From assembly GCF_021655115.1 (NCBI RefSeq), contig NZ_PPXY01000022.1:1-64000 (forward strand): a DNA stretch of 64,000 nt, read 5' to 3'. This document shows, piece after piece, positions 4,701 through 42,446 of the stretch; the first letter of the stretch is position 1, and each line of letters begins with the position of its first letter. The notes under the pieces are model-generated. The model was not told the DNA's origin and did not search any database. It was given only the letters and a program-made list of their open reading frames with translations. A program made the position numbers and the translations under genes. Source of the DNA: Clostridium sp. Cult3. GTDB lineage: Bacteria > Bacillota > Clostridia > Tissierellales > Tepidimicrobiaceae.

Positions 4701-6287
4701 ATGATGAAAAAAATATTAATCCTTTTTACCATTATAACATTAATATTAGCTGCCAGTGGATGCAACCTCACAGAAGATGGTCCCTTACAAACTATGGAAA
4801 AACTTGAAGAAGAATCTCTCAGCTACAAGATTGAAAAAATCGTACTATCCAAGGGATTCCAATCAATAGAGCCTAGTGTAGAGGTATTAAATAAAAATAG
4901 CAATCTAAAATTACTAATATCTACTGGGCTAATTGAAAGTTCTGGAGTTACCATCAATAGGATTACTAAATCCGGAAAAGAAATAAATATATATATAGAT
5001 CGCTTGTTAGAAAAAGGCAAAGTTCAGCTAGCAGTTCCTCAGATTATGATAGAAGTCGAAGAACCTGTAGTAGAAAAACTTGAAGAATTAAATTACAATA
5101 TTATCAGCCAAAACTACGAACCTATAGCTTTAAAGTTTAACAAAAGTCAGATTTTAAACAAAATATACTCTCAGTATAAAATTTCACCAAATACTGTACC
5201 TACAGTAGACTTAACCAAGAGAAAGGATCAACTTTTTTGGGATATATCCTTTAACAGTATATTTGATAAGGAGAACCATGAATCCCCTCTAGTCAATTTT
5301 AATGTTAAAGTAGATGCTTATACTGGTGATGTATTGGATTTAGAAAAAGACGACATTTCTACCTATGTAGATGACGGATCCCTACTAGATTATATACCCC
5401 ATAGTTGCCTACTTTATAAACGTCAACATGAAAACAAGGATAATAAAACCTACGAAAGCCTATGGAGTTACAATATAGAAACTGGGGAGAAGAAAAAATT
5501 ATATACTTCGAAGGACAAAATACAATCAGCACTTTTTAGTCCAAATAATAAATATGTTTCCTTAATTGAAATGGATGATAATAAAACCGATCTATATATA
5601 ATAATGGTATCAAATAATGCAACCTATAAAGTAACTTCTGTTAACTATTTGCATCCAAAACTGATGAAATGGAAGGATGAAAATAGTCTTTATTTTGTGG
5701 ATACTAATGGACATAGATCTACACTGTTGACTTACGATGTGGAGGAAAATAGTTCTAAGGTACAATTTGATTTAGGAATATCTGTAGATGATTTTGATGT
5801 GTTTAATGGCAACTTTTTATTTGTGGAAAGCCAGGATGATTCCCTAAATAAAACCATATATTTAAAGGAAAAGGATATGGAACTAGAAGAAATTGATAAG
5901 GGATTTAAGGCAACATTTATTAATGAAAATAATATTGCCTATCTAAAAAACCTGGAAAAGGAAGACAAAAACACCTTCCATATATACGATATTAAAAAGC
6001 AGGAAGAAATCAACGATCTAGACTATGATATATCCAATTACTTTAAACTTGATGAAGGGAATATGATCCTTATTGAAAAGAATACCTGTAACAATGATTT
6101 TACATTAAACAAGTATAATATGGTAAATGGACATATATTGCCTATTGCAAAGATAAGCAGTGATAAAGTATTTTATGATGCAGTAAGGGAAAGAGGTTAT
6201 ATAGCTTTAGCACCACCTTTAGATAACAAAAAGGATAATGCTATATATTCTATAGATTTAAGCAAGCTACGTGCTATGGATGATTAA
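4701..6287 (+). CDS. Lipoprotein with PepSY-like and beta-propeller-like regions
   Basis: 528 residues. A type II signal peptide ends in the lipobox LAASGC, so the mature protein should be lipid-anchored outside the membrane. Residues of about 120-215 (…VNFNVKVDAYTGDVLDLEKDD) look like a PepSY-type module. The rest has repeated TolB/WD-like strands such as SALFSPNNKYVSLIE and LYIIMVSN, suggesting a beta-propeller. ATG 4701 follows AAAGGAGG; an ATG at 4704 is an alternative. I do not recognise a named family; sensor or scaffold roles are possible but not shown. Confidence 0.6.
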   Translation: MMKKILILFTIITLILAASGCNLTEDGPLQTMEKLEEESLSYKIEKIVLSKGFQSIEPSVEVLNKNSNLKLLISTGLIESSGVTINRITKSGKEINIYIDRLLEKGKVQLAVPQIMIEVEEPVVEKLEELNYNIISQNYEPIALKFNKSQILNKIYSQYKISPNTVPTVDLTKRKDQLFWDISFNSIFDKENHESPLVNFNVKVDAYTGDVLDLEKDDISTYVDDGSLLDYIPHSCLLYKRQHENKDNKTYESLWSYNIETGEKKKLYTSKDKIQSALFSPNNKYVSLIEMDDNKTDLYIIMVSNNATYKVTSVNYLHPKLMKWKDENSLYFVDTNGHRSTLLTYDVEENSSKVQFDLGISVDDFDVFNGNFLFVESQDDSLNKTIYLKEKDMELEEIDKGFKATFINENNIAYLKNLEKEDKNTFHIYDIKKQEEINDLDYDISNYFKLDEGNMILIEKNTCNNDFTLNKYNMVNGHILPIAKISSDKVFYDAVRERGYIALAPPLDNKKDNAIYSIDLSKLRAMDD

Positions 6288-33815: not shown

Positions 33816-34472
33816 GTGAAGAAAATAATCCCCATATTATTAATCGTAATTGGAATGTTATTTCTATTAACTCCATTTATTACAGAACAAATAGTTAAAT
33901 ATTATAGTAAATCCATAGTAGATGATAGTATTTCAAAGGAAACCCTAAAGGCTAATAATGAAAATGATACCTTAGAAGTAGAATTTGATTTCTCTGCAGT
34001 GGAGGATGTGGATATAAAATCTATAATAAAAGGATCTAGGAATTTTAATAAGGAATTAGTAATTGGAACCTTATTAATTCCTGATTTGGATATTAATCTT
34101 CCAATAATGAAGGGCTTATCTGATGCTAATCTTTTAGCTGGTGCTGCTACCATGAAACCAGATCAATCCTTTGGGTTTGGGAACTATACTCTAGCAGGTC
34201 ACAAGATGAAGAAAAAAGATTTGTTGTTTGGAAGTTTAATGGATATTGAAATAGGAAGTAATGTATATATATCAGATGGAGACAAAATTTATGAATACCA
34301 AATTTATGATACAGTTGTAGTTCCTGACACTGCTATGGAAATGCTCTCTGACGAAAAGGCAGATGAAAGAGGTAGTCCAATAATTTCTTTGATGACCTGC
34401 TATTTTTCTTCTAGTACAGGAAAAAGATTTTTTGCTTTAGGAGAATTAGTAGATGAGTATCCTTTAGATTAA
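33816..34472 (+). CDS. Sortase (class A/D-like)
   Basis: 218 residues. N-terminal signal anchor (about 3-22), then the sortase barrel with catalytic His in NYTLAGH, Cys in SLMTCYF and Arg in GKRFFALGEL. It joins LPXTG proteins to peptidoglycan; the probable substrate is the LPKTG adhesin encoded 1 kb away. GTG 33816 follows GCGGAGG. Class A or D cannot be separated with certainty from sequence alone. Confidence 0.88.
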   Translation: MKKIIPILLIVIGMLFLLTPFITEQIVKYYSKSIVDDSISKETLKANNENDTLEVEFDFSAVEDVDIKSIIKGSRNFNKELVIGTLLIPDLDINLPIMKGLSDANLLAGAATMKPDQSFGFGNYTLAGHKMKKKDLLFGSLMDIEIGSNVYISDGDKIYEYQIYDTVVVPDTAMEMLSDEKADERGSPIISLMTCYFSSSTGKRFFALGELVDEYPLD

Positions 34473-34504: not shown

Positions 34505-35293
34505 TTAATATATCTTTTCTATTCTATATTCCTTTGCATCCTTGATCATAGATATGGGTACCTTCTTCTGTACATAGGCAGAATCATATGTAGTATCTAT
34601 ATTAACCCATTTACCATTCAAATATATTTGATTCCAAGCATGATATTTTTTAATATCCGATTTGTATCCCATAATTAACTTTGTAGGTATGTCTAAACTT
34701 CTTAGCATGGCTGCTGTTAGTACAGCATAATCATAGCATATTCCAGATTGGGACTTTAAAGTGGCATCTATATAAGGTATGTAACCTGATTCCACTGCAT
34801 ATACCTTTTCGTCGTCATATTTTATATTATCTGTTATGTAATTATATATGGCTTTGACCTTTTCTTCATCACCTTTAGCAGTTCTAGTCAGCTCTTTTGC
34901 TTTTTTAATAGCTGCCATATCTTCATTCCAATTGACCATTTGGATAGGTTGTAAAAACAATTCTCTTTCGTCCTTCAATTCTAACTTTACTGTTTCTTTG
35001 TCTATTTGTCTATATTTATTCCCCCGAACATGTTCTAAGATTGAAATAGTGTATTCTCCATTTCCAAATTGTAGGGGATAATTCATGTTTGATTCTAGAT
35101 TATAATGTGCCCTTTTATTGCCTTTCGTTATCAACACCTTCATATTATCAACATTATTTTTATAGTTTATCTTTACTATACCCTTGTCCAAATTATTTAC
35201 GTCCACAATAGCGTTTTGAGCAGATGCTGTGCTAGATATCAACAAAATAAAAAAGATGGCTATTGTGGAGTTTAAGATACGTTTTCTAATCAT
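34505..35293 (-). CDS. Secreted transglutaminase-like protein
   Basis: 262 residues. Signal peptide (about 3-26, ending ASAQNA), an N-terminal beta domain, then a transglutaminase-core fold with the triad Cys in QSGICYDYA, His in KKYHAWNQ and Asp in NIDTTYD. Such exoproteins act as proteases, cross-linkers or peptidoglycan-linked amidases; the reaction here is unknown. ATG 35293 follows AAAGGGGGAG. The 5' leader is a c-di-GMP-I riboswitch, so expression should follow the sessile/motile signal. Neighbours are a sortase and an LPXTG adhesin. Confidence 0.85.
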   Translation of the reverse strand: MIRKRILNSTIAIFFILLISSTASAQNAIVDVNNLDKGIVKINYKNNVDNMKVLITKGNKRAHYNLESNMNYPLQFGNGEYTISILEHVRGNKYRQIDKETVKLELKDERELFLQPIQMVNWNEDMAAIKKAKELTRTAKGDEEKVKAIYNYITDNIKYDDEKVYAVESGYIPYIDATLKSQSGICYDYAVLTAAMLRSLDIPTKLIMGYKSDIKKYHAWNQIYLNGKWVNIDTTYDSAYVQKKVPISMIKDAKEYRIEKIY

Positions 35294-35308
35294 ATCTACT
35301 CCCCCTTT

Positions 35309-35400
35309 CGGTAACTGGCTGCCATCTTGAACTTTCAAGGAAGGCCCTTTAGTTTTGCGTCCTTGGTTTTCACCAAGTTTGCCTTTATCGGTGGAAAGCC
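35309..35400 (-). ncRNA. Cyclic di-GMP-I (GEMM-I) riboswitch
   Basis: Reading the minus strand: CGATAAAGGCAAAC, helix CTTGGT-GAAA-ACCAAG with the GNRA tetraloop, GGACGCAAAAC, TAAAGGG, then ATGGCAGCCAGTTACCG. These are the GEMM-I conserved blocks in correct order (GGCAAAC, GNRA hairpin, GACGCAAA, GGG/CC receptor helix, GCAGCCAGTTACC). The aptamer ends 9 or so bases before the AAAGGGGGAG ribosome-binding site and no terminator is seen between, which favours translational control. Confidence 0.93.
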
Positions 35401-35410
35401 ACCAGACAAA

Positions 35411-35438
35411 ATTATACCCAATTATCAATATTATACAA
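35411..35438 (-). promoter_or_regulatory. Promoter of the c-di-GMP riboswitch transcript
   Basis: Minus strand TTGTAT (35433-35438), 16-nt spacer, TATAAT (35411-35416). The expected start point is a few bases before the aptamer. A second set, TTGTCA with GATAAT at 17 nt, lies just upstream. Confidence 0.6.
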
Positions 35439-35480
35439 TAATTTGACAAATTTGTACATAGGACTTAAGAACGGGGGACA

Positions 35481-35509
35481 TAAAAAAGAGCAAGGTTTCC
35501 CTTGCTCTT
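35481..35509 (-). terminator. Terminator of the LPXTG adhesin gene
   Basis: AAGAGCAAGG (35486-35495) pairs with CCTTGCTCTT (35500-35509) around a 4-nt loop; TTTTTT follows on the minus strand. Separates the adhesin from the transglutaminase transcript. Confidence 0.85.
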
Positions 35510-39893: not shown

Positions 39894-42446
39894 TTATATT
39901 ATCTTTTCCAATACTACCATTTCCACTCCATGGGCTGGTATTTGATGTATACTATTATACTCTCCCTGCAAATTTACATATTCTACAGTCATTTCAGGCT
40001 GGGATATTCCTTTTAAATATTCTATCTTCTCTCTTGTCATATTTTCTGGGGCCCCAACCCTTACCCATTCATCAAATACTGAGCCATTTTCTCTGTTGAG
40101 TTTATACTTTGTTATTTTATAATCTCCCGTAATATCTTCTATACTAAATGCTATTTCTTTTATACCTATATTTTCATAAATTAAATATCTTTCCTTATGA
40201 GATATATGGGAGGTGTCCCCAGATAAAAATAAATCGTCAAAGTAAGCGTAATTATATACTAAAATCTGAATATCCTCTTCTTCTCTGGTGATTATATAAT
40301 CTTCTCCTTGTTCTATTATTGCATTTCCTAATTTAGATAACAGATAATAGGCATAGTAAGATGGCTTTTTTAATCCATCTTTGTTTATTAATCCAAAGCC
40401 TCCATGGAAATGGGATATGCCTAATTTATGTTCTTCAAATATATCTGTAAAAGCCCAATAACCTAGGGAATCTATTTTATCTATGGATTGTATTGCATTT
40501 TTTACTATATAGGTGGATATATAACAAGTATCATGTATGAGGTTACCAAAAAGTGCTGAGGCATTCCATTCGGTAATATGGATTTCTATTTTTTGATTTA
40601 GGATGGTTTTAATTTTTTCATTGATAGTACTTGTAACATCTAATACATGGTCTTTGCCATGATATGCTCTTCTTATATTAACTTGTATTTCTTCTATATC
40701 TACACCATCCTTATATAATTCAATGGCTTTCTTCATACTTTCTTCTGGTATATATTCTGGATAAATATGTATAGATAGAAAATCCAAAGGTACCCCTTCC
40801 TTCTGGATAAACTTTATAAAATCCTCTATCCAACTACTATTCAATAAAGTATGATAGGTTATGGCTGGTCCTCCTACCCTTAGATTTTTTGAAATGGATT
40901 TTATCGCCATAGCTGTTTGGTAATAAAATTCAAAATATTCCTCTTTGCTACCTGCCCAAAAAAAGTTTTCAAATTCTGGCTCGTTCCATACTTCAAAATA
41001 CCAAGTTTCTACTTCCTTTTTTCCGTATCTATTTATACAATGTTTAACAAATTCCTGAACCAAATCTACCCATAGGCCTATATCCTTTGGAGGGGATATA
41101 TTTCCTTTCCACCAAAAAATAGTTTCATTAGTTCTTTTTAATTCTTCTGGCATAAAGCTTAGCTCTACAAAGGGCTTAATATTCATTTCCATAAAAAAGT
41201 CAAATAATTCATCTACATAGGTCCAATTGTATTCAACTTTGCCTTCATTAGAAATATTATATATCATCATCTCATCCATAAATATACCGTGAAACCTTAT
41301 ATATTTAAATCCAATATCCCTTTGTAACTCTCTAAACTGCTCTTGCCAATTGGCTCTTAAGCCTTCTGCTGCCCTGCCAAATGTAATAAGTTCTTGCCAA
41401 TGATGTTTGAAATATTCACCTGTTTTCCTACCATCTACTGTAATATATTCTATACTATCCTTATTACTATAATGATGATCGATTATTCCTTCTATAGGTT
41501 CCAAATAATTAAACAGTTTTTCCAATGCTGCTGTTCTATCTACATCTAAATAGGTACTACTACTATTAAGTCTGTTATTCTTTGTAATAACCTTTTCACA
41601 TTGGGACATGGTTTTATATCGTTCCCTATACTCCGTTGGAGAGCAATTATATGTATCTCTAAAAATCCTATTAAAAGAATTTACGTTAGAAAATCCACTG
41701 GTATTGGATATATCTATTATCGCTTTATTGCTATTTACTAACATATCTACTGCATTAAATAGTCTTATGCTATTTATATATTCTTGAAAAGACATGCCCA
41801 TCTTGTTCTTTATAAAGTGGGATAGGTAGTAATAATTAACATGTTCTTTTTCTGCAATTTCTTTTAAGGTAATTTTTCTATCTATATTTTGATCTATATA
41901 ATCAACTATACGTTGAAGTCTAAGTAGATCTTCATCCATTAGTTTTTCACCAATATCGCTTATTATAGTATAGTCGAAGTTATTCACAAGATGTAATCCA
42001 AGCAAGTGTAAATAACTTCCTATTAGAAACTGATATCCCCGGTCTTTTTTGTTTAGTTCCCATACTATCTTTGCAATATATTGTCTAATTATATCAAACC
42101 TTTCTTGTTCATCTTCCCCAAAGATAAAAGATTTACAATCAAATTGCATCCTGTTAAATTGAGGATAAATGTTATCATAAAATTCAGGATTTATTTGCAC
42201 TACAAGTAGCATATTTTCATCCTTAGTTTTTTTTGTACTATGAAGTTCATTACAGTTTATTAAAATGATATCCTTTTCCTTTAAATAATATGTTTCTTCT
42301 CCTACCCTAACATTTACACTACCTTCTAGAACAAATAATATTTCCAATTCCTTGTGCCAATGAAATTGAAATTCATCAACGCTATGTATTATAGTCTTTA
42401 AAGGTAGGGTCCCCTCCCCCTCAATAATTTCATAGTAATAGTTCAC
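39894..42446 (-). CDS. AraC-type regulator fused to a GH39 glycoside hydrolase
   Basis: 850 residues, one open frame. Residues of about 1-150: cupin sensor (HWHKELEILFVLEGSVNVRVG). About 190-285: AraC double helix-turn-helix (ITLKEIAEKEHVNYYYLSHFIKN; FSNVNSFNRIFRDTYNCSPTEYRERY). About 310-830: GH39-like domain with acid/base Glu in YFEVWNEPEF and nucleophile Glu in HITEWNAS, then GYWAFTDIFEE. No signal peptide, so both halves act in the cytoplasm. GH39 enzymes are beta-xylosidases or related; the fused regulator may sense the sugar that the enzyme releases. GTG 42446 after GGGGGGATACT. No sugar transporter adjoins it. Confidence 0.9.
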   Translation of the reverse strand: MNYYYEIIEGEGTLPLKTIIHSVDEFQFHWHKELEILFVLEGSVNVRVGEETYYLKEKDIILINCNELHSTKKTKDENMLLVVQINPEFYDNIYPQFNRMQFDCKSFIFGEDEQERFDIIRQYIAKIVWELNKKDRGYQFLIGSYLHLLGLHLVNNFDYTIISDIGEKLMDEDLLRLQRIVDYIDQNIDRKITLKEIAEKEHVNYYYLSHFIKNKMGMSFQEYINSIRLFNAVDMLVNSNKAIIDISNTSGFSNVNSFNRIFRDTYNCSPTEYRERYKTMSQCEKVITKNNRLNSSSTYLDVDRTAALEKLFNYLEPIEGIIDHHYSNKDSIEYITVDGRKTGEYFKHHWQELITFGRAAEGLRANWQEQFRELQRDIGFKYIRFHGIFMDEMMIYNISNEGKVEYNWTYVDELFDFFMEMNIKPFVELSFMPEELKRTNETIFWWKGNISPPKDIGLWVDLVQEFVKHCINRYGKKEVETWYFEVWNEPEFENFFWAGSKEEYFEFYYQTAMAIKSISKNLRVGGPAITYHTLLNSSWIEDFIKFIQKEGVPLDFLSIHIYPEYIPEESMKKAIELYKDGVDIEEIQVNIRRAYHGKDHVLDVTSTINEKIKTILNQKIEIHITEWNASALFGNLIHDTCYISTYIVKNAIQSIDKIDSLGYWAFTDIFEEHKLGISHFHGGFGLINKDGLKKPSYYAYYLLSKLGNAIIEQGEDYIITREEEDIQILVYNYAYFDDLFLSGDTSHISHKERYLIYENIGIKEIAFSIEDITGDYKITKYKLNRENGSVFDEWVRVGAPENMTREKIEYLKGISQPEMTVEYVNLQGEYNSIHQIPAHGVEMVVLEKII

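Follow-up and report, generated by a model that had tools for sequence, protein, structure and literature searches.

A 64,000-nt stretch of the Clostridium sp. Cult3 genome (contig NZ_PPXY01000022.1; hereafter the window) encodes a small transglutaminase-fold protein beside genes for a sortase and a large LPXTG-anchored protein. An initial annotation made from the sequence placed a c-di-GMP-I riboswitch directly before this gene and gave no direction of control, which raises the questions of whether c-di-GMP would switch the enzyme on or off and what the enzyme may act on. As judged from its expression platform, the riboswitch probably represses the gene when c-di-GMP is bound. Overall, we propose that this locus is probably a c-di-GMP-I OFF switch on a secreted, transglutaminase-fold cysteine enzyme that may act on the neighbouring anchored adhesin.

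A c-di-GMP-I aptamer precedes the gene for a transglutaminase-fold protein

Using the Rfam covariance models, we found a minus-strand match to RF01051 (c-di-GMP-I, GEMM-I) that covered the full model (1-87/87) and, at 80.3 bits, exceeded the gathering score of 35; its E-value of 3.5e-14 rules out a chance match. The aptamer stops 13 nt short of the ATG that opens the enzyme gene (Table 1), in agreement with its annotated place ahead of the ribosome-binding site; the interval given initially, ending at 35438, includes part of the leader. GGCAAA, GACGCAAA, and ACCG, which we take to be the binding core with residue roles known from Vc2, are present in the window aptamer as judged from the match and a 28-sequence alignment, and the aptamer is predicted to bind c-di-GMP. 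Apart from this aptamer, the Rfam scan of the window matched only a purine riboswitch (RF00167, 1069-1168 (+), 68.9 bits) upstream of an ORF starting at 1300.

The riboswitch also appears to have its own promoter, as had been suggested. A sigma-70-like site, TGTACA-17-TATAAT (35458-35430), scored 10/12, with 2 such sites found compared to 0.8 expected from shuffled sequences, and the two closest relatives (L004 and L005) carry similar hexamers at the same spacing, with TGGACA as the -35 element. An intrinsic terminator of the adhesin gene, absent from the terminator-scan listing, separates that gene from the riboswitch transcript. Just past this terminator, TCCCCCGTTC (35469-35478) is complementary at 9/10 positions to the Shine-Dalgarno (SD) sequence of the enzyme gene (35300-35309). 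On read-through transcripts it could mask the SD independently of c-di-GMP, or it may be a chance match; a complement of this kind was not seen by eye in the nearest relative.

Table 1. Features of the enzyme locus, in coordinates of the window.
Feature	Position	Strand	Basis
Sortase CDS, 218 aa, downstream of and convergent to the enzyme gene	33816..34472	+	profile match
Secreted transglutaminase-core protein CDS, 262 aa, ATG 35293	34505..35293	-	ORF and PF01841
SD region GGGGGAG	35299..35305	-	sequence and fold
GGGGAG, 3' strand of P1 extension	35304-35299	-	sequence and fold
c-di-GMP-I (GEMM-I) aptamer	35307..35393	-	RF01051
CTTTCC, 5' strand of P1 extension, complementary to SD region	35393..35398	-	pairing, fold, and covariation
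Predicted alternative hairpin, 12 pairs, loop CTTT	35383..35411	-	minimum-energy fold
Promoter -10 hexamer TATAAT, 17-nt spacer	35430..35435	-	motif scan; kept in relatives
Promoter -35 hexamer TGTACA	35453..35458	-	motif scan; position kept in L004 and L005
Intrinsic terminator of upstream adhesin gene, AGAGCAAGG-GAAA-CCTTGCTCT then T run	35487..35508	-	by eye
LPXTG-anchored adhesin-like protein CDS, 1354 aa	35515..39579	-	Collagen_bind, SpaA, LPKTG

The gene product matched Transglut_core (PF01841; E = 2.2e-25, 89.5 bits against a cut-off of 23), its N-terminal residues resemble a signal peptide by eye, and the Cys186, His218, and Asp233 triad is invariant across 52 orthologues, which bears out the description of the target as an exported Cys-His-Asp protein of this fold. 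A longer ORF that starts at a TTG and runs through the aptamer (34505-35449) was also considered, and ATG 35293 was preferred because an SD is present and because of the alignment with orthologues. The AlphaFold2 model (mean pLDDT 94.5) consists of a signal helix, an N-terminal beta domain, and the transglutaminase core.

Both annotated neighbours, the sortase and the LPXTG protein, were recovered, and this context is conserved in relatives. The 1354-aa adhesin-like protein is a possible substrate of the enzyme. The Rfam scan detected no riboswitch upstream of the adhesin gene (39579) in the window. Beyond it, at 39894-42446 (-), lies an 850-aa AraC-type regulator (cupin, HTH_18) fused to a GH39 glycosidase. 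The genome as a whole encodes two c-di-GMP-I copies and two GGDEF domains; c-di-GMP-II was not found in it, in a search whose control gave no match either. The second c-di-GMP-I copy (L002 1501-1622; G000:C5:85818-85909) lies in a type IV pilus region, between pilC-like and pilin genes, and a terminator overlaps the 3' end of its aptamer by 10 nt, which looks like the layout of an ON switch.

The aptamer accompanies the enzyme in close relatives across Bacillota

Close homologues of the enzyme occur in 57/249 genomes of the same order. At 54/62 orthologue places, a c-di-GMP-I or c-di-GMP-I-GGC aptamer lies upstream on the same strand, 33 of the order orthologues having an aptamer-to-start gap of 8-16 nt. 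Places lacking an aptamer are mostly two-domain versions, a decayed copy, or contig edges. A search model made from the aptamers of the order matched neither these places nor other Transglut_core genes. The decayed enzyme gene (L006 1501-2268) has in-frame stops, and its upstream region fails the aptamer model. At another locus, L214, a second copy of the enzyme gene with its own c-di-GMP-I lies directly downstream (4947-5852).

To look beyond the order, we took the 80 best named relatives from an alignment query over 84,980 species genomes. An aptamer was present within 600 nt upstream in 71/80 of these, 66 of them at 8-16 nt from the start, and tandem aptamers occurred at 40; describing the nearest 80 among at least 585 relatives, these rates are valid for the enzyme's subfamily rather than for all transglutaminase-like proteins. 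These relatives come from Paenibacillus, Brevibacillus, Bacillus, Cohnella, Saccharibacillus, Clostridium, Tissierella, Natronincola, Syntrophomonas, Fusibacter, and others. Thus, a c-di-GMP-I aptamer upstream of the enzyme is the rule among close relatives across Bacillota, and the view that such a target is unusual did not hold. A plasmid search with the enzyme returned mainly distant transglutaminases, plus a pilus locus of Acetoanaerobium noterae (L029 2017-6792) in which an enzyme homologue without a riboswitch ends a type IV pilus operon, after pilT.

The pairing itself is also already known, since tandem c-di-GMP-I aptamers upstream of COG1305 genes in Bacillota were tabulated in a 2025 survey (PMC12452182). 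The tabulated entries share the aptamer class and the broad protein class (COG1305) with the window and related loci; they are tandems, whereas the window's copy is a translational variant with a single aptamer, and the arrangement occurs at the related loci in either tandem or single form. Where searched, the main text of the survey did not describe a platform, a direction, an orthologous family, or gene neighbours for the COG1305 target, and a functional discussion of the link was not found in the literature searched. As far as that literature goes, new results are how far the orthologous family extends and that its architecture is fixed, the covariation of the SD helix and the OFF direction it implies, the tandems that combine two platforms, and the link to sortase and adhesin genes.

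A helix that would hide the SD points to repression by c-di-GMP

Transcription-terminator control was rejected for the window itself, where no hairpin followed by a T run lies between the aptamer and the ATG. At short-gap loci, the strand directly 5' of the aptamer is complementary to the SD region, often up to the start codon. Examples are CTTTCC with GGGGAG in the window, GTAAACTTTC with GGAGGGTTTAC in L093, AATCTTTTC with GGAGAGATT in L094, and GCAGACTGTC with GGAGAGTTTGTG in L133. The SD lies inside this P1-extension helix at 86/95 loci.

We compared the duplex energies of each locus's own partners with those of permuted partners, a procedure that keeps base composition and does not remove the full relatedness between loci. 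In the order set, own partners averaged -8.92 compared to -7.62 for permuted ones (z -3.7, 2/5000); in held-out loci fetched afterwards, the values were -9.35 and -7.02 (z -8.6, 0/5000). The two sets share a few loci, and pooling without those gave 0/5000. By this measure, the helix joining the aptamer 5' flank to the SD region is covarying. Since it extends P1, the stem stabilised by the ligand, the bound state is expected to hide the SD, and c-di-GMP would probably repress the gene in the cell.

Fold calculations for the window leader were consistent with this direction. With P1 forced closed, the SD was 13% unpaired, compared to 66% in the unconstrained fold, in which the 12-pair hairpin formed and engaged both the aptamer 5' strand and the anti-SD CTTTC. 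Forbidding P1 alone left the SD hidden (14% unpaired), so in the calculation it is formation of the competing hairpin that exposes the SD, not the loss of P1 by itself. The open fold was favoured over the P1-closed fold by about 5 kcal/mol in energies that carry no ligand term, and switching would therefore depend on the energy of ligand binding. This preference for the free state is in keeping with an OFF switch powered by tight binding of the ligand.

Related loci use other platforms. At a long-gap group of 19 loci, 69-178 nt separate the aptamer from the start, and next to the aptamer comes a non-overlapping terminator whose 5' arm is complementary to the conserved GCAAAGC core of the aptamer (19/19), so folding of the aptamer is expected to free the terminator. 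In tandems, the P1 extension of the first aptamer is followed immediately by a T run at 43/47 loci, and this helix also covaries (z -6.7). Tandem loci (L151, L156-L170, and others) apparently carry two OFF platforms in series, a P1 terminator and then SD sequestration; at the first unit, binding would stop transcription, and at the second it would block translation. Judged from their layouts, the three different platforms upstream of the enzyme family all read as OFF. In L157, L211, and L214, an LPXTG gene carries a c-di-GMP-I whose aptamer 3' end is overlapped by a terminator by 10 nt, and these copies look like ON switches. At two further places (L188 2185-2263 and L216 326-402), c-di-GMP-I precedes a short exported protein (MKKR...GGTMAWFTA...) that by eye resembles TasA/CalY-type matrix proteins.

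Fold and gene neighbours suggest a cell-surface substrate

The best Foldseek structure match to the enzyme was 3isr, named putative cysteine protease (E = 2e-8), followed by S. pyogenes TglA, human and animal transglutaminases, and LapG (E from 4e-5 to 6e-4); the pseudomurein endoisopeptidase PeiP was also among the matches. This fold comparison did not tell protease, transglutaminase, and endoisopeptidase apart. The LapG profile NF045674 gave 15.8 bits against a cut-off of 320 (E = 0.006), so the enzyme is not a LapG family member by the NCBIfam cut-off. Literature searches on TglA and on Gram-positive LapG-like enzymes returned nothing on this enzyme family.

A sortase or LPXTG gene lay within 1.5 kb at 58/139 enzyme loci, compared to 0/22 other Transglut_core loci and 0/23 other c-di-GMP-I loci. 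More than half of the enzyme loci have no such gene within 1.5 kb, which, together with the Acetoanaerobium pilus homologue, indicates that at some loci the enzyme may have a substrate other than an adhesin. Prepilin-like neighbours were found at four loci, among them L095, L097, and L223.

In our view, the repression suggested by the leader makes a biofilm-building enzyme less plausible and favours one active at low c-di-GMP. Known systems offer two models. LapG is a transglutaminase-fold cysteine protease that releases a large adhesin, and it has this fold in common with the window enzyme. In the LapG/LapD/LapA system of Pseudomonas, as described in PMC3032545, LapA is freed by LapG at low c-di-GMP. 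Control there is exerted by a membrane c-di-GMP receptor that holds LapG, whereas in the window an RNA switch would act on synthesis. In C. difficile, ZmpI (PPEP-1) is repressed by c-di-GMP via a type I riboswitch and cuts the sortase-anchored CD2831, encoded next door, leading to shedding (PMC4591827). The window likewise combines a secreted enzyme, a c-di-GMP-I riboswitch with a predicted OFF direction, and an adjacent large sortase-anchored adhesin. The two loci differ in that ZmpI is a zinc metalloprotease, and in that CD2831 is switched on by a type II riboswitch while the window adhesin has no riboswitch. In B. thuringiensis, Bc2 c-di-GMP-I precedes a collagen adhesion protein gene (PMC4933901), and Bc3-5 precede the cell-surface proteins cspABCDE and are described as an ON switch with terminators (PMC4759541); these sit on surface-protein genes, whereas the window aptamer sits on an enzyme gene and reads as OFF.

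Alternative readings of the locus

c-di-GMP binding might instead free the SD, so that the enzyme would help to build an adhesive surface. Other c-di-GMP-I copies in these genomes do have the look of ON switches, the copy in the type IV pilus region of the window's genome among them. At the enzyme gene, however, closure of the aptamer and pairing of the SD involve one and the same helix, this helix covaries, and all three platforms of the family read as OFF; we regard an ON switch as improbable. We see a similarly slim chance that the enzyme serves type IV pili, with the sortase linkage reflecting co-inherited surface genes. The Acetoanaerobium operon, the prepilin-like neighbours, and the pili under the second c-di-GMP-I of the window's genome would suit such a role, but sortase/LPXTG neighbours are far commoner than prepilin-like ones.

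An alternative that keeps the OFF riboswitch deserves more weight, unlikely as we consider it: in the motile state, the enzyme could cross-link or modify surface proteins as a true transglutaminase or a ligase, or it could hydrolyse wall cross-links. The Transglut_core domain with its triad would allow this, as would the structural matches to human transglutaminases, TglA, and PeiP. A matrix cross-linker repressed by c-di-GMP, however, is at odds with the usual logic of this messenger, and the best structural match is the one named as a cysteine protease.

Processing of the adhesin is favoured since predicted repression, export, and an adjacent anchored adhesin match ZmpI and, functionally, LapG. 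In this proposal, a single c-di-GMP-I riboswitch would control translation of the enzyme. With c-di-GMP bound, CTTTCC would pair with the SD region, extending P1 and turning translation off; in its absence, the hairpin overlapping the aptamer 5' end would take up the CTTTCC strand, leaving the SD free and allowing the enzyme to be made. At low c-di-GMP, the exported enzyme would then act on the sortase-anchored adhesin, with release of this protein by cleavage, or its remodelling, as the most likely outcome. This suggests that the enzyme frees or remodels the adhesin when cells leave a surface. That it does so by proteolysis is a tentative proposal, drawn by analogy with ZmpI and LapG.

Implications for surface detachment in Gram-positive bacteria

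For Lap in Pseudomonas and for ZmpI, a single case in C. difficile, c-di-GMP-controlled adhesin release is well understood. More speculatively, the family described here might represent a Bacillota-wide RNA counterpart of Lap, in which a transglutaminase-fold protease, repressed by a riboswitch that sequesters the SD or, in tandems, combines a terminator with SD sequestration, sheds sortase-anchored adhesins when c-di-GMP falls. If so, tests could start from a defined RNA switch and from an enzyme that is small and can be purified, and the predicted direction of control shows which growth state to examine. Detachment under c-di-GMP control would then be a general Gram-positive programme, in Paenibacillus, Clostridium, Tissierella, and others.
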